NCBI GenBank assembly: GCA_003023565.1
Contig: PXSA01000032.1
Coordinates: 64,501 to 128,500 of the forward strand
Direction: 5' to 3'
Length of the DNA stretch: 64,000 bases
From: Halobacteriales archaeon QS_9_68_17
Lineage (GTDB): Archaea > Halobacteriota > Halobacteria > Halobacteriales > Natronoarchaeaceae
A program made the translations under genes and the position numbers. The notes beneath the pieces were generated by a model. The model was given only the letters and a program-made list of their open reading frames with translations. It had not been told where the DNA came from and ran no database searches. Positions 22,949 through 31,914 of the stretch are shown here, in pieces (positions within the stretch are counted from its first letter, which is position 1; every line of letters begins with the position of its first letter).

Positions 22949-25900
22949 TCAGGTCAGCCACTCGTCGGGCTTGGTGTCGTAGTCGACGTCGCTCGCGGCG
23001 ATGTCCTCGACCTCCTCCCATGGGAGGTCCTCGACGGTGTGTTCCTCGCCGTCGTAGCGCAGGAGCTTCCCCGTCTCCTCCGGGTCCGGCTCCTTGTCGC
23101 GGCGCTTCGCCACCTCGACGTCGTGGTCGTCGACCTCCTTGACGATGGTCATGAGGTTGACCGGCCGGCCCCATAGCTCGAAGACGCGTTCGAGCGTGCG
23201 CCTCGCCTGCCCGATGTCGAGCATCACGCCGTTGTAGTGGTGCCCGAGCAGCAGTTCGTTCCGGTTGTTGTAGTTGCCGTCGTAGACGGCGACGGTCGGC
23301 TTGCCGAAGTTGGTGAACTGCAACAGCAGTTTCTTCTTGACGTCCTCGTAGTCGGTGCTGGCGACGCGGTTCTGGCCGGCGGCCTGCGAGTACTCGTAGG
23401 TGAAGTACTCGTTCTCGTCGACGAACTCCTGCGTGAGGAACTCGTCGAGGAACGTCACGTCGTTGTGGCTCTCCCGGATCTCGCGCATCCGGTCCCAGCC
23501 GCGGGTGAAGTCCACGTCGTCGAGCGCCTCGTCGACGTCGTCGTACACCGCGTCGTCGAACATGTACCGCCCGATGTGTTCGAGGTCGTTCTGGCTGATC
23601 TGGCCGAGGAACCCGCGGTACTGGCGCTTGACCAGCGAGTAGTGCCGCCGGGCCAGCCCCTCGTAGGTCAGGACCTTCCAGGGGTGGCGGTCCACGTCCA
23701 CGGGTTCGCTGGCCCGTTCCGGACCGGCGTCCTCGGAAGCACTCCGTGCTTCTGATGTGCCCACAGGATCGCTATGCGATTCCGGGACGGCGGTAGCCGC
23801 CCCGTCGACCGCGCCCTCGCGGGCGCGGTCGAGCGCCTCGCGGTCGACGTACTCGTCCGGCAGTTCCGCGACCGCATCGAGCGAGTCCGAGTCGATCGAG
23901 TTCAGCGCTTCCGGCGGCTCTAACGCCTTCAGCACACGCTCGAAGTCGACGGTGTCGGTGAAGTTCCGCCAGGTGATCCCCTCGACGCGGAGCAGGGTCT
24001 CGACCACTTCGCGGCGGTTCGTCGTGTTCTCGACGTACTCCCACAGTTCCTTGCCGAGGCTGTACGGGTTGAGGCCGGGCGACCCGAGGACGCGAGCCAT
24101 GTGGTCGGCGTAGCTGACGAACTCGTCGGCGTCGGCGAAGGCTTCGCCGCTCATCATGGTCGACTCCCAGTAGGAGTTGTGATTGACGAACCCCGCGCCG
24201 GCGTACCGGTGAGTCTCCTCGACGGAGATGTCGTACACGGTGCCGGTGCTCTCCTCGATAGCGACGACTTCGTCGGTCCACGACTCGTCCTCGTCCCACT
24301 CGATCCCGTCGAGGTACTCCTGGATCGCGGACGCTTTCTCCGGGAATCCGAACCCCACGCGGTCGACGAACCGCTCGGCCGACTCGCCGGTAACGTGGAC
24401 GTGATAGCAACCATCGGCCTGTTCGCGGCGTCGGCTGAGGATCCCGAAGTTCGTCAGGAGCAACTGAACGGTTTCGCTCATCGGCTCGCTTTTCGTGCTG
24501 AGGACGATCCCCTGATCGCCGGCGTATCCGTCTGCGTCGAACAGACCACGCAGGAACTCCGCGACGACCGCTTTCGGCGAGCGGAGGACGGGACCGGGTA
24601 CCGACTTTCGGTCGGCCGCTTCCCCGTCCGGGAGACCGGTCACTTCGACCAGGAGGTCGACGAGATGGTCCGAGTACACGTGAGCCCGCCACCGCGACCC
24701 GTCCTTCTCGACGGTCGGGTCGACGCCGAACAGTTCGTCCGCGAGTCCGGCGAAGTGGTCGGCGTGGCGGCGGTCCCCGTTCGTGAAGCCGACGACGCCA
24801 GCGGCGGACGAGACGTGTCCGTCGCCCACGAGCAGCCCCAGGAAGCGGCCGAACTCCTCGGAGACCGTTTCCGGGACTCGAACGGGGTCGCGCTGCGTGA
24901 GACGTTGGTCTTCGCCGTCGTACGCCGACAGTGCGGCATCGATAGCGTCGGCTCTCTCTGCCCGCCCCGTACGCCGGTATCGCATCACCGTCCACACCGA
25001 GACGCCAGCCTCGTCGGCGACGTCTTGTAGGGTGACGTGTTCCTGCGGCGTCCAGTCGACCGGAACCGGTCGCGACGGCCAGACGCCGTTTCCGCCCGTC
25101 ACCTCGATCCCGTCCCCGACGTCCAGTTCGTCGAGCCTGACCCACGACCCGTCGGGTCTCCGGACCCGGTGATTGTTCGATCCCGTGAGTTCGAACCCCC
25201 GACGGGTCTCGACCGTAACCGTGTCGTGGTCGGAGATGACGTTCGAGTCGTACACATCCCGCGTCGCTTCGCCGTCGGAGACGGGGACGTGTCGCCCGAC
25301 GACTTCCTCCATCGGAACGAGACCGTCGGCCGTAAACACGAGGGTGTCCGGCGCGACGCAGGCCCACCCCTCGTTCATCACCTTCGTCATCTTCTGGGCG
25401 GCAAAGTAGTACGCTTCCGCGCGGAGCATGTCGAGCACGTCGCGCTGCCACGGCTCCATCTCCGTCGCCTTCTCGGCCTCCGCCTCGTACTGCTTGCCGT
25501 GTGCCCGGAGGAACGCGAGCACGTCCTTCTGGGGCTCGTCCGGGAGCGAGACCGGTTCGCCCTCGTCGCCCTGCCGTTCGAGCCACTCGTCGCTGAACAC
25601 CTCCTCGCGCACCTCGTCGGAGAGTTCGAGTTCCGAGAGCTGCTTGCTCAGGTCGTCGTCGGCCTCCGTCTCGGAGGTCCCGCCGGGGAGTATCTCGGGG
25701 TCGAACACCTGATGCTGGTCGATGTTGTCCTCCAGCGTGAGCAGGTTGTCTATCCACCGTTCGACCTCCGCGCGGTCGATGTCGGGGTCCTGCATGTACT
25801 CGTCGATGGTGCGGGCGTGGCGCTCCAGCATCGCCGCGGCGTCGAGGTCGTCGGCGAACATGCCGAACCACTCGTTGTTGGCGAAGAAGTCGGCGTGCGC

Positions 25901-26239
25901 CTCGACGTGGGTGACCACCGCCTTCTGGTCGGCGAGGTCGTTCGATTCCTGCAGGAACGCATGCGAGGGGTTGTCGTTGTTGACTATCTCGAACGCCTTG
26001 CCGCCGCCGTAGCGGTCCTGCTTGCGCTGCTTGTCGTACTTCATCCCCCAGCGCCAGTGCGGGTAGCGGCGCTGGAACCCGTCGTAGGCGATGAGCTGGT
26101 TCATCTCGTCGTAGTCGACGATCCAGTAGTTCACCGGGTACGGTTCGAGACCGAGGCGCTCGGCCAGTTCGTTGGCGTCGTCGACGGGTTGCTGCAGGTC
26201 GGCGGCGATCCGTCGCGCCTCGTAGCGGTCGAAGCTCAT
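22949..26239 (-). CDS. SpoVR family protein interrupted by an intein
   Basis: The 1096-residue precursor contains a SpoVR/YcgB protein of 701 residues once the 395-residue intein (residues 294-688) is removed. The mature sequence joins as KVMNEGWA-SYWESTMM, restoring the conserved SpoVR block. Other SpoVR blocks are present: YPHWRWGMKYDKQR near residue 45, AHADFFANNEWF near 130, and HHYNGVMLDIGQARRTLERV near the end. A variable Glu/Ala-rich insert lies about 130 residues after the splice point. SpoVR proteins are co-expressed with PrkA kinase and YeaH in starvation or sporulation; their biochemical function is unknown. The gene starts 16 bases after yeaH and is last in the operon. Confidence 0.92.
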   Translation of the reverse strand: MSFDRYEARRIAADLQQPVDDANELAERLGLEPYPVNYWIVDYDEMNQLIAYDGFQRRYPHWRWGMKYDKQRKQDRYGGGKAFEIVNNDNPSHAFLQESNDLADQKAVVTHVEAHADFFANNEWFGMFADDLDAAAMLERHARTIDEYMQDPDIDRAEVERWIDNLLTLEDNIDQHQVFDPEILPGGTSETEADDDLSKQLSELELSDEVREEVFSDEWLERQGDEGEPVSLPDEPQKDVLAFLRAHGKQYEAEAEKATEMEPWQRDVLDMLRAEAYYFAAQKMTKVMNEGWACVAPDTLVFTADGLVPMEEVVGRHVPVSDGEATRDVYDSNVISDHDTVTVETRRGFELTGSNNHRVRRPDGSWVRLDELDVGDGIEVTGGNGVWPSRPVPVDWTPQEHVTLQDVADEAGVSVWTVMRYRRTGRAERADAIDAALSAYDGEDQRLTQRDPVRVPETVSEEFGRFLGLLVGDGHVSSAAGVVGFTNGDRRHADHFAGLADELFGVDPTVEKDGSRWRAHVYSDHLVDLLVEVTGLPDGEAADRKSVPGPVLRSPKAVVAEFLRGLFDADGYAGDQGIVLSTKSEPMSETVQLLLTNFGILSRRREQADGCYHVHVTGESAERFVDRVGFGFPEKASAIQEYLDGIEWDEDESWTDEVVAIEESTGTVYDISVEETHRYAGAGFVNHNSYWESTMMSGEAFADADEFVSYADHMARVLGSPGLNPYSLGKELWEYVENTTNRREVVETLLRVEGITWRNFTDTVDFERVLKALEPPEALNSIDSDSLDAVAELPDEYVDREALDRAREGAVDGAATAVPESHSDPVGTSEARSASEDAGPERASEPVDVDRHPWKVLTYEGLARRHYSLVKRQYRGFLGQISQNDLEHIGRYMFDDAVYDDVDEALDDVDFTRGWDRMREIRESHNDVTFLDEFLTQEFVDENEYFTYEYSQAAGQNRVASTDYEDVKKKLLLQFTNFGKPTVAVYDGNYNNRNELLLGHHYNGVMLDIGQARRTLERVFELWGRPVNLMTIVKEVDDHDVEVAKRRDKEPDPEETGKLLRYDGEEHTVEDLPWEEVEDIAASDVDYDTKPDEWLT
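24176..25360 (-). other. Intein with LAGLIDADG homing endonuclease inside SpoVR
   Basis: A 395-residue intein. It starts with Cys1 (CVAPDTLVFTADGLVPMEEV), has a block B region with GSNNHRV, and ends VYDISVEETHRYAGAGFVNHN with Asn as last residue and Ser as the first C-extein residue. This is a standard class 1 self-splicing layout. Two LAGLIDADG-type motifs (FLGLLVGDGHVSS and LRGLFDADGYAG) indicate a homing endonuclease, and an HTH-like segment (TLQDVADEAGVSVWTVMRYR) probably aids DNA recognition. All motifs look intact, so both splicing and homing are likely. The insertion lies in the most conserved SpoVR block, as is usual for inteins. Confidence 0.93.
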
Positions 26240-26255
26240 GGGTTCACCATCGGTA

Positions 26256-27569
26256 TCACGATTCTTCCTCCTCCGTGCTCAGGATCTCGTAGATCGCGTC
26301 GGTCACGTCCTCCGGACTGGTGACGTACGTCACCGCGACATCGTCGCTGTCCTCGCCGAAGTGGCGCTCGACCTCCTCGGCGTGGGTGGCGTTGATCGCG
26401 TTCCCGCTCGGCTGGGTCTCCACGTAGGCGTGGAGGTTCGCCGGGATCCGCTCCATCAGCGGAATGACGCCCTCCTCGGTGTCGTTCGAGGAGTTCTCGC
26501 TGTCGCCGGCCGCGAACACGTAGCGGTTCCAGTCGCTCCAGGGGTACTCCGCCAGTAGCTGGTCCGCCAGCTCGTACGCCGACGATATCTTCGTCCCGCC
26601 GCCCGAGCGGATGCCGAAGAAGTCGTCGCGCTCGACCTCCCAGGCCTCCGCGTCGTGGGCGATGTAGACGAACTCGGCGTTGTCGTACTTCCCCTGCAGG
26701 TACCAGTCCAGCGGCGTGAACGTCCGCTCGACCAGCTCTCGTTTCTTCTCGCGCATCGAGCCGCTCACGTCGCGGATGTTCACGACGACGACGTTCTTCT
26801 CCTTCTCCTCGATGATCTCCGGGTGGCGGTAGCGTTCGTCCTCGCGGCGGAACGGGACGTGGTCGACCCCGTCGCGGCGGATCTGCTCTTTGATGTCCTC
26901 GCGCTCGACGTTCGCCTCGACTTCGTCGATGCTCTCCCACTCGCCGCGCTCGTTCTCCGGGATATCGGCGTAGCGCTCGTCCAGCCACGCCTTCGAGACG
27001 GGGATGGACTCGCCGCGCGCCCACTCGAAGGCCGTCTGCGGGCCGACGCCCCCGACCTTCAGCACCTCGGTGAGGAACTCCTCGTCGAAGTCCATCGCCA
27101 GCTTGCGCTTTAGCCCCTGCTTGAACATGCGCTCGAAGTCGAGCGTGCTGTCGGGACCGGTCTTCGTGAGGTCCTTGAACGGACCCTCCTTCTCCTCGAC
27201 GACGGATTTCCCCTTGGGTTCGAGTTCGAGACCGAGCTCCTCGTCGAGTTCCTCGGCGAACTTCTCGGGGTCCATCTCGTAGTACTCGTGTTCGCCGCCC
27301 TCTTCCCCGGGCTCTCCCTCCTCGTCGCCGTCGCCGGGCTGGGGCTGCGGCTGGCCGACGGTGTCGCCCACGTCGGCGTCGCCCTGTCCGACGCCGCCCT
27401 GGTCTCGCTGGTCGTACTGGAACTCCGGGAGGTCGACTATCTTGATCGGCACCCGGATCTCCGACGGGAGGCTCTGTCCGAGGTCGCCGTACTGGATGAA
27501 GTCCGCGAGGTCCTCGCGGCGCTCCTCCCCGACCTCGTAGAACCGTTCCAGGTCGTCTTTCAGTCCCAT
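26256..27569 (-). CDS. yeaH: YeaH/YhbH (UPF0229) family protein
   Basis: A 437-residue protein of the UPF0229 family. An acidic, Gly/Pro/Gln-rich region near residues 60-95 precedes the conserved part. The C-terminal half carries a von Willebrand-A-like fold with a MIDAS-type DVSGSM motif and the block [13 protein letters not shown]. The family is always found beside the PrkA kinase and often SpoVR, and is thought to form part of the same nutrient-stress module. Its start overlaps the stop of the upstream prkA gene by 10 bases. Function at the molecular level is unknown. Confidence 0.9.
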
Positions 27570-29842
27570 TTGTAGCTCACCTGTCCCATGACGTGTCTGC
27601 TCGTCAGTTCCGCCGACGCCTCGGTGTAGTCGAACATCTCGACCATGTTCTCGATCGTCTGCTCTTTGACCGCCGCCGTCTCGGTGCCGCTCGGCGGGTC
27701 GTCCCACTGCCGCGGGTCGAAGTCCTCGAAGATCCGCGCCACGTCGTCCCAGTCGTGGGACTCCAGCACGCTCTTGATGATCGGGATCTCCGTGAGGTCG
27801 ACGTCCGCGACCGAGAACTCGTCGTCGCGGTGCTCCCACGCGTGGCGGTTCAGCGCCGTTATCACCTTCTCCGTACGGAACTGCCGGACGGCGGGCGACG
27901 GTTCGTTGCCGTCGTAGCTCTCCGGCGAGAACCGGCCGAGGTGCTCGGTCTCGAACACCTTCATCTTCAGCGGGTCCGGTGCGACCCGTTCGCCGCGCTC
28001 GTTCTCCAACTTCTCGTCGGTCGCCCAGGCGTAGACGTGTTCGACGTACTCGCCGACGGTCTCCTCGTCGACCTGCTGCTCGCGCATCGTCGCGTCGATG
28101 ACGTCCGCCTCCTGCCGCTGGAAGACGTGGTTTTTCACGGGCACGACCCGGTTCTCGAACTCGGTACGCTCGCCCGGCGAGAACACCGGCGCGTCGGTCA
28201 GCCCCTCGGCCATCGCGTTCAGCACGTCGCGGGGCATGATCACGTCCTCGACGGCCAGTTCGGGATGGTGCCGGTCGCGCACCTCGTGCAGCAGGTCGGC
28301 GATCCCGTCGCGGGTGTACGTGACCGGGATGCCGTGCTCGCCGTTCGAGGCGTCGTCCTCGAACTCGAAGTCCTCCTTCTCTAAGCGCTCGTCGCCGTCC
28401 TGGAGGTAGCCCCGGTCGAACAGCAGCGCCTTGTCGACCAGGTCCAGCCCGGCGGGGAGGTCCTCGTCGTCGAGGCGGGTGACGACGCTGTACAGCGCCG
28501 CCGCCTCGATAGCGTGGGGCGCGAGTTCGCGCTCGCGGAGTTCCCCCTCGGCGTCTTTCACCTCGACCGTCAGCGGCTCCGCTATCTTCTCCTCGACCAC
28601 GTCGTCGGCCGCCGCGTCCCACACCTCCGTCTCGTTCGTGAGTTCGCGGCGGATGAGCTCGGTCTCGAGGCTGAGGTTCGTCAGGTACGTGAACTCGTGT
28701 TTGTCGAGGCGGCGCTTGAGCGCCTTCAGCGGGTCCATCCCGTTCTTCTCGGCGTGCTGGTTCAGCTTCGCCTCCAGGTCGGGGTTCGAGATGATGACCA
28801 GTTGCGTGTCGATGTCCATCCCGATCCCCTTGTCGAGTTTCACCGTGCGCTCGTCGGGGACGTTCAGCAGCTTCTGGAGGAGGTCGGCGTGCTGGGCGGC
28901 GTCCTCGACGACCGTGAGGAGGCCGTTGCCCTGCGAGAGCACGCCGTCGTAGGAGAACGCCTGCGGGTTCTTCCGGCCGCGGGAGTCGAGTTCCTGTAGC
29001 ATGCCGCGCATCCAGGTGCCGACCAGACGCTCCTTGGGCTGGCCCTCGTCCTCCGAGTGGAGGACGCCGATGCCCCGTCCCACGTCGACGACGTAGTTCT
29101 TCACGCGCAGGTGCGACGAGTCCGCCACCGTCGAGAACAGGTCGTCGTCCCCGCGACGGCGGTACTGCTCCTCTAAGTACTCGTAGGCCTCCCGGGAGAA
29201 CGGGTCGAGGCGCTGGTCGACCCGGACGTCGAGGTGGTCGTCGTTGGACCCGTTGAGCTCCGCGAGCAGTTCCTCGCGGACCTCGTCCGGGAACACGGAG
29301 AGCGGGTGGGCCTGAACGGGACTCTCGTACCAGTGGTCCTCATCGACGGGGGAGTCGCCGCCGTAGCTCAGCCCGCGGGTGTCCTCGGCCGTCGCGACGT
29401 TCCACTCGACGGTGTAGCGCCGCCCCTCCGGCGTCTTCGAGTACTCGCGCAGGCCGTTGATCAGACAGCGCTTGAGTTCGGACTTGCCGGTCGCCGTCGG
29501 CCCGTCGAACCAGACGATCTTCTCGTCTTTGGCCCGCTCGGCCGCGATGGAGCGGAGGTCGTCGACGAAGGCGTTCAGCACCTCGGTGTTGCCGAGCACG
29601 GCGTGCTCGCCGTCGTTGTGCGGGTCGTCGAAGAAGCGGTAGCGCTCCTTCTCCTCGCCCTTCTCGACGACGGTCCGCGTGCCGGCGGCCTCGATCGCTT
29701 CGAGGAGGTACTTGCTCGCGTGCGAGGCGATCCGCGGCGTCTCGAACACCGCGTCGACGTACTCGTCGAGGCTCATCGGCTCCTCGTACGTGTCCTCGAG
29801 CGCGCGGTCGGCCTCGCTGACGAACTCGTCGCCGCGGCTCAT
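27560..29842 (-). CDS. prkA: PrkA-type serine protein kinase (second copy in the operon)
   Basis: A 760-residue PrkA family protein. The P-loop [12 protein letters not shown] lies near residue 120 within an AAA+-like ATPase domain; conserved blocks include [34 protein letters not shown] and, near the C-terminus, a kinase-like region. PrkA/YeaG phosphorylates target proteins under starvation. The ATG overlaps the upstream prkA stop (ATGA) and the stop overlaps yeaH, giving a tightly coupled four-gene operon. This copy diverges strongly from its neighbour and is longer, so the two are probably distinct partners, not recent duplicates. Confidence 0.9.
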
Positions 29843-31914
29843 CAGTCCTCCATCTCGGCTTTGGCGACCTCGGCGCCGGCGAACTCCAGCACCTCGCGGG
29901 CACCCCCTTCGGAGTAGCCCTGCTCGATGAGCGCGTCGATCCACTCGTTGCGCTCGTCGTCGTCGAACTCGTTGCTGGAGACCAGCGCCGAGAAGTTGAT
30001 GTTGTGCTTCTTGTCCTCCCAGAGCTTCCGTTCGAGGGCGCGGCGCAGGCGCTCGTTGTCCTGCGGGTTGAACGCCTCGCCCTCGCGGGCGCGGCGGGAC
30101 ACCCAGTTCGACACCTCCTGCCGGAAGTCGTCCTTGCGGTCCTCGGGCACGTCGAGTTTCTCCTCGACGGCGCGCAGGAACGTCTCGTCGGGTTCCTGCT
30201 CGCGGCCGGTGAGTTCGTCCTCGACGGTCTGGTCGTCGATGTAGGCCATCACGTGGTCCATGTACTTCTCGCCCTGGCGCTCGATCTCGTCGATGTCGTA
30301 GGCCAGCGCGTGGCGCACGTCCTCGATGGCCCGCTCCTTGTACTCCTCGCGGACGGTCTCGAGGTAGCGGTAGTACGTGTCGAAGTTCTCCTCCGGGATG
30401 GAGCCGTGGTGTTCGAGGTTCTCCTCGAAGAAGTTGAACACCGTCAGCGGCGAGAGGAAGCCGCGCTCACGGTGTTTCGAGTCCATGATCGCCTCGGCGA
30501 TCTCGTCCCCGATGAACCGCGGCGAGACGCCCTCCATGCCCTCGCCGATCTCGGCTTTCTCCTCGGCCTCCTCGCGGAGCTTCTTCTCGTCGATGTCGTC
30601 GCCCTCGTCGACCTCGCCGTTGTACGCCTTGGCCTTCTGGAGCAGGTCGACGGTCTCGGTGTCGGGCTCCTCGATGCGGGTGAGGACGCCGAACAGGCCG
30701 GCCATCTCGTGGGTGTGGGGCTCCACGTTGATGTCGGGCACGTCCGCGTTCGACAGCATCTTCCGGTAGATCTCGGCCTCCTGCTCGTAGGAGAGGACGT
30801 ACGGGAAGTCGATCCGCTTGGTGCGGTCGTTGAACGCCTCCATCTTCTCGTCGCCCTTCTTGTCCTTGTACTCGGGCATGTTGGTGCGGCCGACGATCAC
30901 CTGGTCGATGTCGATCCGCGGGTTGTTCTTGGGCTTGATCGTCTGTTCCTGCGTGGCGTGCAGGAAGTCGTAGAGGAACTCCCGCTGGAGCTTCAGCAGC
31001 TCCTCGCCCGAGAAGATACCGCGGTTGGCGTTGCAGAACGCGCCCGAGTAGTCGAACGCCCGCGGGTCGGACTCCCCGTAGACGGCGATCTTCGAGTAGT
31101 TGACGTCCCCGGTGAGCTCCGTCTCGTCCTGGTTTTTCTTGTCCTTGGGCTCGAACGTCTCCAGCCCCTGGCGCTTGTTCTCGTCGGCGACGAGGCGGAC
31201 GACCTCGACGTGGTTCCGGAGCACCTGCTGGAGGTCGTCCTCGTAGTGCGCCAGCAGGCGGTCCATGTAGAACTCCGACTCGGGGTCGAGGCTCTGCTCG
31301 CTGCGGATTGAGTAGGGCGCATCGAGGCGCTCGTTCAGGTCGTCGATGATCGACTCGCGCTGTTCCTGCGGGACGAGCACCAGCGGGTCCTGATTCATCG
31401 GCGACCTGACCGTGTCGTCCGCGGGGTCCTGGTCGTCTATGACGTCACAGAGGTTCGTCCAGCGGAACGTGTACATCCGGCCCTCGTCCCGCATCGTGTA
31501 GTCCTCGTAGTACTGACGCACCTGCTGGTCGAACGCGGACTTCCCGGACCCGACCGGACCGAGCAGGAGTTTGATGCGACGCTCCGGACCGAGGCCGCGG
31601 GCCGAGGACTTCACCTTGTTGACGAACTCGTGGATGGCCTGATGGATCACCTTCCCGTAGAAGGTGTTCTCGCCGTCGTTGATCGGGTCCTCGGACACCA
31701 TCTCGTACTCGACGACGCCGGCTTCCTCGTCGTACTCGGTGCCGTAGCAGTCGAACATGTCCGCCACGCGCTGGTGCGCGTTGCGGGCGATCTTCGGGTC
31801 GTCGTACACCTCGTCGAGGTACCAGTCGAACGACTTCGTGTCGCGCAGGTCCGCAGGAACCGATTCCTGGTACTCCTCGCTCAACGCTTCGAGTGTGTCG
31901 ATGTCTCCTGTCAT
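29842..31914 (-). CDS. prkA: PrkA-type serine protein kinase (first copy in the operon)
   Basis: A 690-residue PrkA/YeaG homologue. The P-loop GPVGSGKSAFDQQ is near residue 120. Conserved family blocks follow: FDYSGAFCNANRGIFSGEEL, RTNMPEYKDKKGDEKMEAF and KRIDFPYVLSYEQEAEIYRK. The last two match the canonical bacterial PrkA more closely than the second copy does. First gene of the prkA-prkA-yeaH-spoVR operon. The start ATG 31914 is preceded by a long non-coding leader with the likely promoter about 400 bases upstream. Confidence 0.92.
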   Translation of the reverse strand: MTGDIDTLEALSEEYQESVPADLRDTKSFDWYLDEVYDDPKIARNAHQRVADMFDCYGTEYDEEAGVVEYEMVSEDPINDGENTFYGKVIHQAIHEFVNKVKSSARGLGPERRIKLLLGPVGSGKSAFDQQVRQYYEDYTMRDEGRMYTFRWTNLCDVIDDQDPADDTVRSPMNQDPLVLVPQEQRESIIDDLNERLDAPYSIRSEQSLDPESEFYMDRLLAHYEDDLQQVLRNHVEVVRLVADENKRQGLETFEPKDKKNQDETELTGDVNYSKIAVYGESDPRAFDYSGAFCNANRGIFSGEELLKLQREFLYDFLHATQEQTIKPKNNPRIDIDQVIVGRTNMPEYKDKKGDEKMEAFNDRTKRIDFPYVLSYEQEAEIYRKMLSNADVPDINVEPHTHEMAGLFGVLTRIEEPDTETVDLLQKAKAYNGEVDEGDDIDEKKLREEAEEKAEIGEGMEGVSPRFIGDEIAEAIMDSKHRERGFLSPLTVFNFFEENLEHHGSIPEENFDTYYRYLETVREEYKERAIEDVRHALAYDIDEIERQGEKYMDHVMAYIDDQTVEDELTGREQEPDETFLRAVEEKLDVPEDRKDDFRQEVSNWVSRRAREGEAFNPQDNERLRRALERKLWEDKKHNINFSALVSSNEFDDDERNEWIDALIEQGYSEGGAREVLEFAGAEVAKAEMED

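Follow-up and report, generated by a model that had tools for sequence, protein, structure and literature searches.

An intact homing-endonuclease intein in haloarchaeal and myxobacterial SpoVR that probably co-converts its +1 codon

Co-conversion of the +1 codon along with an intein was inferred for the haloarchaeal MCM-d allele, since the empty sites of that gene mostly encode Pro at +1 and are splicing-incompetent (PMC10643990). In its treatment of MCM-d, the same paper calls such invasions low in rate and notes that MCM is essential (PMC10643990). The TliVMA and PI-TkoII inteins are known to carry accessory domains of the helix-turn-helix type (PMC8966425). The table of a 2014 survey of halobacterial inteins lists 13 extein genes with 24 sites, and SpoVR is not among them (PMC4071816). 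The first-pass annotation of the locus described here had called SpoVR a less expected host, and its absence from that table agrees with this, as does our failure to find a paper on a SpoVR intein. A search of full-text literature, in which few subscription journals are represented, returned nothing that pairs SpoVR or ycgB with an intein, and no article joining inteins with Myxococc, Halobacteria and homing endonuclease; intein and stage V sporulation never appeared together among the matches listed.

The window, that is, the whole stretch of 64,000 nucleotides that was analysed, encodes on its minus strand a SpoVR open reading frame (ORF) of 1096 aa, of which residues 294-688 (395 codons) are the intein; 701 aa are left after splicing. 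All coordinates are collected in Table 1. The letters at the two junctions are NEGWA/CVAPDT...FVNHN/SYWES. Pfam splits the SpoVR match in two and places LAGLIDADG_3 (PF14528, 3.5e-22) between the halves, while the NCBIfam models intein_Nterm and intein_Cterm match at the two ends of the insert. The Pfam model Intein_splicing scores 4.4e-08 in the whole protein, slightly below its cut-off, and 5.1e-09 for the intein alone, which is above it. When the insert was excised in silico, the remaining 701 aa aligned without interruption to the intein-free SpoVR of four congeners, with identities of 87-89% in the N part and 81-86% just past the site. Across 21 aligned intein-bearing SpoVR proteins, the NEGWA before the intein is invariant except for its last residue. 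The earlier annotation, which made no mention of the minus strand, had proposed that the intein is intact and contains a homing endonuclease, with Cys1, the terminal His-Asn, Ser+1 and two LAGLIDADG motifs all visible and with SpoVR restored by the removal of 395 residues. The ORF translation, the domain matches and the uninterrupted alignment bear out each of these points. An assembly artefact or chimera might be suspected in a draft genome of 42 contigs that is 89% complete. However, the same site and architecture are found in Halomicrobium katesii, Natrinema altunense, Halorussus halobius and Natribaculum breve, the G+C content of the intein (66.6%) is similar to that of the host (65.6%), and there are no stops inside, so that we consider such an origin exceedingly improbable. 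As judged from sequence, the intein is real and complete, and very probably active.

Table 1. Coordinates of the SpoVR precursor, its intein and neighbouring genes in the window
Feature	Position	Strand	Basis or remark
SpoVR precursor ORF, 1096 aa	22949..26239	-	ORF and Pfam
N-extein, SpoVR residues 1-293, ending in conserved NEGWA	25361..26239	-	
Intein, 395 aa	24176..25360	-	Pfam, NCBIfam, model
N-terminal splicing (Hint) part, intein residues 1-100, block B S61xxH64	25061..25360	-	Cys1 codon 25358..25360
LacI-like helix-turn-helix, intein residues 106-150, probable accessory DNA-binding domain	24911..25045	-	Pfam LacI, model
LAGLIDADG homing endonuclease, intein residues 165-337	24350..24868	-	Pfam, model
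LAGLIDADG motif 1, FLGLLVGDGHV, D180	24812..24844	-	
LAGLIDADG motif 2, FLRGLFDADGYA (LFDADGY), D277	24521..24556	-	
C-terminal splicing part, residues 338-395, block F D377/H384, N393-H394-N395	24176..24349	-	
+1 extein codon TCC (Ser), C-extein nucleophile, probably co-converted with the intein	24173..24175	-	
C-extein, 408 aa	22952..24175	-	
DUF444 (YeaH-like) gene region, upstream of SpoVR, same direction	26256..27653	-	Pfam
PrkA-type gene region (YeaG-like), first of two adjacent paralogues	27560..29860	-	AAA_PrkA 2.6e-12
Second PrkA-type gene	29842..31914	-	AAA_PrkA 4.2e-62

DUF444 and PrkA genes are the usual starvation-operon partners of SpoVR. The AAA_PrkA score is far weaker for the first of the two PrkA-type genes than for the second. 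On contig C34 of the window's genome (G000), a further gene (L050, 1..2163, minus strand), which we take to be ribonucleotide-reductase-like, apparently holds two tandem inteins, one ending in ...VSHN/SPTLMNAG and the other starting at CFPPGTNV.

Block names and motif definitions are those of class-1 inteins. All residues of a class-1 (Cys1) intein are present by sequence: Cys1, S61xxH64, D377, H384 and N393-H394-N395 occur in 40/40 full-length copies (27 haloarchaeal and 13 from Myxococcota), and block B reads SxxH instead of TxxH in every one of them. The catalytic acids of the nuclease are almost as constant, with D180 kept in 38 and D277 in 39 of the 40. Two copies, one haloarchaeal (G374, L019) and one myxobacterial (G395, L315), have replaced the first catalytic Asp by Gly and Ala, respectively, and kept all splice residues, which is possibly an early loss of homing. 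The window copy has both acids intact, and its PF14528 match is accompanied by structure matches of the I-DmoI type. An AlphaFold model of the intein, built on a 24-sequence alignment, reached a pLDDT of 91.2 and a pTM of 0.87; it contains the Hint fold (2in0, Z 19.0, 126 residues, 1.6 A), and its top match among solved structures is the TliVMA intein 7qsu (Z 33.3, 309 residues, 2.9 A). The N-terminal splicing part is followed, ahead of the nuclease, by a LacI-like helix-turn-helix with model helices at 111-118, 122-131 and 137-144; Pfam finds it in 24/24 aligned inteins, with an E-value of 8.3e-05 for the window copy that lies below the curated cut-off. The model of the whole precursor is poor (pLDDT 68, pTM 0.41) and at its worst in SpoVR near the site, and we do not claim that the intein splits the SpoVR catalytic site. 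The HxxxH and EGWA motifs of SpoVR presumably resemble those of metallopeptidases.

Full-length copies of 393-397 aa were found at the identical site in 27 of 392 genomes of the order Halobacteriales, and two additional partial copies lie at contig ends (G079 and G098). SpoVR itself was matched in 347 of the 392 genomes, and 36 of 345 near-complete genomes had no SpoVR match. Within the family, the eight remaining genomes all have SpoVR but no intein. Named carriers include Natribaculum breve, Natrinema altunense, N. pallidum (a fragment), Halorussus halobius, Halospeciosus flavus, Halovenus salina, Halomicrobium katesii, Halonotius roseus, two Halorubrum and Halorutilus salinus. In Myxococcota, 13 of 282 genomes have a full copy and one more a partial copy, and 13 were verified at the same site. 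The intein is thus no rarity: the host gene is new with respect to the survey table, but occupation of one site in 27/392 and 13/282 genomes lowers the novelty by the criterion that the first-pass annotation had itself set. The G098 bin contains an intein-free SpoVR (Ala, GCC at +1) in addition to its contig-end, intein-bearing SpoVR (Ser, TCG; loci L104 and L193), and is perhaps a mixed population carrying both alleles. Viral contigs gave distant matches only (at most 32% identity) and plasmids seven records, all below 60%, with no SpoVR annotation among those listed for either; the best 12 of 31 phage records had at most 25% identity, and none of these was annotated as SpoVR. The matches of about 30% that we inspected in Chloroflexi and Poribacteria are inteins at a different site, after GPNM(A/S)GK, in a host protein that we take to be MutS-like.

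The haloarchaeal and the myxobacterial inteins form two clean groups in the tree (support 100/100). In 60 pairs across the two domains, the mean identity was 53.7% for the inteins and 41.4% for the N-exteins, which suggests that the intein was transferred between Archaea and Bacteria after the host genes had parted. Among haloarchaeal carriers, intein identity follows host identity (r 0.83; means of 67% and 65%), as would be the case if the intein spread mostly between relatives or is old; hence, much of its distribution may be ancient or confined to relatives. Taken further, this correlation and the two clean groups could indicate an old, mostly vertical intein with many losses, whose nuclease is a relic. 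On a host tree of 168 genomes, however, the intein must have been gained or lost at least 24 times (FastTree, with columns within 20 of the intein site excluded; the codon-level set comprises 168 of the 347 SpoVR genomes). The nuclease does not look like a relic either. Its dN/dS is 0.09-0.12 in nine close pairs, similar to that of the splicing part (0.07-0.20), and the host value is above it in seven of these pairs and equal in two. The nuclease is also present in 40/40 full-length copies, and a polarised foreign patch in one carrier (G171, see below) speaks against purely vertical descent as well. We therefore consider a vertical history with a relic nuclease unlikely. The low dN/dS of the nuclease suggests active homing, and together with the lack of any nuclease-less copy (mini-intein) among the 40 full-length SpoVR inteins it fits an element that is kept by homing.

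It had also been proposed that the intein could make SpoVR activity depend on conditions that govern splicing (salt, redox at Cys1). In such a reading, low salt or oxidation of Cys1 would slow or block splicing and so switch SpoVR with the state of the cell. The intein directly follows the near-invariant NEGWA, so that unspliced SpoVR is probably inactive. Conditional splicing has been published for other inteins, and a salt-dependent Halobacterium intein exists. Besides Cys1, the window intein has a single cysteine, C318, which is kept in 27/27 haloarchaeal copies. Yet this residue lies in the nuclease domain and is missing from 4 of the 13 Myxococcota copies, the eight other genomes of the family manage SpoVR without any intein, and a patchy pattern with selection on the nuclease requires no benefit to the host. 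Nothing in these data supports control by salt or redox, nor is such control needed to explain what was seen, the cysteine pattern does not decide the matter, and we regard a regulatory role as improbable. The patchy distribution, the purifying selection on the nuclease and the co-converted flanks described below are what a selfish homing element would be expected to give, although they would be compatible with conditional splicing too.

The +1 codon is Ser, as TCC or TCG, in 27/27 full haloarchaeal copies, in both partial copies and in three further named carriers (L199, L204 and L208). It is TCN in 13/13 Myxococcota copies, and TCN Ser is thus found in 40/40 full-length copies. The 141 intein-free haloarchaeal genomes have 90 Ala, 33 Ser (16 TCN and 17 AGY), 17 Thr and 1 Val at this position, in a sample that is non-random (at most 60 regions from the best Pfam SpoVR rows, the rest from carrier genera and the family) and leaves out the loci G060, G157 and G067, in which the search pattern gave no empty site. 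Only Ser, Cys or Thr can act as the C-extein nucleophile (PMC10643990), so Ala and Val are unable to serve at +1. A congener was sampled for 17 carriers, and the empty allele closest to each has Ala in ten cases, Thr in three, an AGC Ser in two and TCN in two. In 22 independent pairs taken from the host tree, TCN tracked the intein about 19 times, the opposite pattern never occurred, and about three pairs showed no difference (median p 3.8e-06). Co-conversion of the MCM-d type is thus indicated both by these pairs and by the overall contrast between occupied (27/27) and empty (16/141) sites. In Myxococcota, 12 of 12 empty alleles have Ser at +1 (TCN in 10), indicating that the bacterial site permits splicing.

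The comparison with intein-free alleles suggested in the first-pass annotation was run: the coding stretch around the site is near-invariant, and the +1 codon differs in most carrier pairs (16 of 17, against 45 of 97 empty pairs). The next most differing codons are +6 (12/17 and 30/97) and +20 (12/17 and 35/97). The clearest case is G171, which is Halomicrobium katesii by matching coordinates, and the empty allele G102, whose SpoVR is 97.9% identical. The two genes are identical throughout codons -31 to -15 and again from +7 to +94, and their differences cluster between -14 and +6. Of the six codons directly after the site, five differ, and at +1 AGC has given way to TCC. In the downstream patch, G171 resembles other carriers and G102 resembles the empty G059, which indicates that G171 gained the intein. 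In two other pairs, the +1 codon is the only difference over a longer stretch, namely GCT to TCC within codons -39 to +14 (G153 and G047) and GCC to TCC within codons -18 to +10 (G007 and G158). Within five codons of the site, the mean near/far divergence was 1.93 for the 17 occupied-empty pairs and 0.75 for 97 empty-empty pairs (permutation p 0.0013), but the medians are closer (0.95 and 0.72), so that a few clear pairs carry much of this signal. The nearest sampled empty allele in such comparisons is not the true recipient. Recombination with an empty allele that removed the intein would also produce much the same patch, and the two directions can be told apart when an outgroup is available, as for G171. 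In G309 (L012), SpoVR just upstream of the intein is unlike that of all relatives (DDGGPTTKVMNEGWA), with about 35 codons barely alignable, which is a local deletion or frameshift beside the homing site.

A TCN codon at occupied sites might also result from selection or from the specificity of the nuclease, if only TCN alleles were cut or if Ala mutated to Ser after invasion. Ser is required or useful for splicing, and TCN occurs in some empty alleles already (16/141). However, empty alleles carry Ala in g19 (13/13), g1 (4/4) and g9 (13/14) and Thr in g7 (16/17), whereas their occupied relatives have TCN; Thr could in principle splice; and later mutation would not alter five of six downstream codons or turn AGC into TCC in a host that is 97.9% identical (G171). 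This makes selection or specificity an improbable source of the pattern, and homing probably co-converts the splicing nucleophile along with the intein.

We propose that the element is a splicing-competent, class-1-type intein with a LAGLIDADG nuclease and a LacI-like helix-turn-helix that homes with co-conversion of the +1 codon, and, from the sequence evidence, we assign this reading a probability of roughly 85%. The 1096-aa precursor would be translated and spliced through Cys1, Asn395 and Ser+1 into a 701-aa SpoVR and the free intein. The latter would cut empty spoVR where the coding sequence hardly varies, around NEGWA and the Trp-Glu that comes after it. Repair off the occupied allele would then carry over the intein and a short piece of flanking sequence, in every case with the +1 codon (TCN, Ser). 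Recipients with Ala at +1, in which no splicing is possible, or with Thr would become invadable through this copying of the flank. Co-conversion at +1 looks common in SpoVR. A plausible reason is that SpoVR seems dispensable, because some near-complete genomes (36/345) show no match. A broader idea, which we regard as evenly poised between right and wrong, is that the heritable unit is the intein plus the next codon, that a dispensable host lets a single homing event overwrite a non-splicing residue, and that the intein crossed from a Ser-bearing myxobacterial SpoVR into the mostly Ala-bearing archaeal genes and spread there. If this is true, the intein has reached hosts from which the need for a suitable +1 residue ought to bar it.

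SpoVR joins the genes invaded by inteins as a host outside replication and nucleotide metabolism, with one site common to Archaea and Bacteria. Because named isolates include occupied and empty alleles that are nearly the same, homing, tract length and the +1 rule can be tested directly, and since SpoVR seems dispensable, the essential-gene constraint of MCM would not interfere. The element itself is of a known kind; what is new is its host gene, and the natural record of +1 co-conversion that it offers is unusually clear. Like the alleles in the 2014 halobacterial survey, the SpoVR intein is patchy in its presence and seems to have moved between genera and between Archaea and Bacteria; the alleles of the survey, however, include mini-inteins (PMC4071816), and none was seen among the 40 full-length SpoVR copies. 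By fold and profile it is closest to TliVMA (7qsu, 7qss), in which a LAGLIDADG nuclease is likewise joined by a helix-turn-helix accessory domain (PMC8966425). TliVMA, however, resides in a V-ATPase, the identity is 26%, and the helix-turn-helix of the SpoVR intein scores as LacI-like in Pfam. With MCM-d (cdc21), as presented in PMC10643990, it shares a haloarchaeal setting, a homing endonuclease and Ser at the occupied +1 position. It differs from MCM-d in its host, SpoVR, in the residues at empty +1 sites (Ala, Thr or Ser, where MCM-d mostly has Pro), and in that the change at +1 is seen in most carrier lineages.
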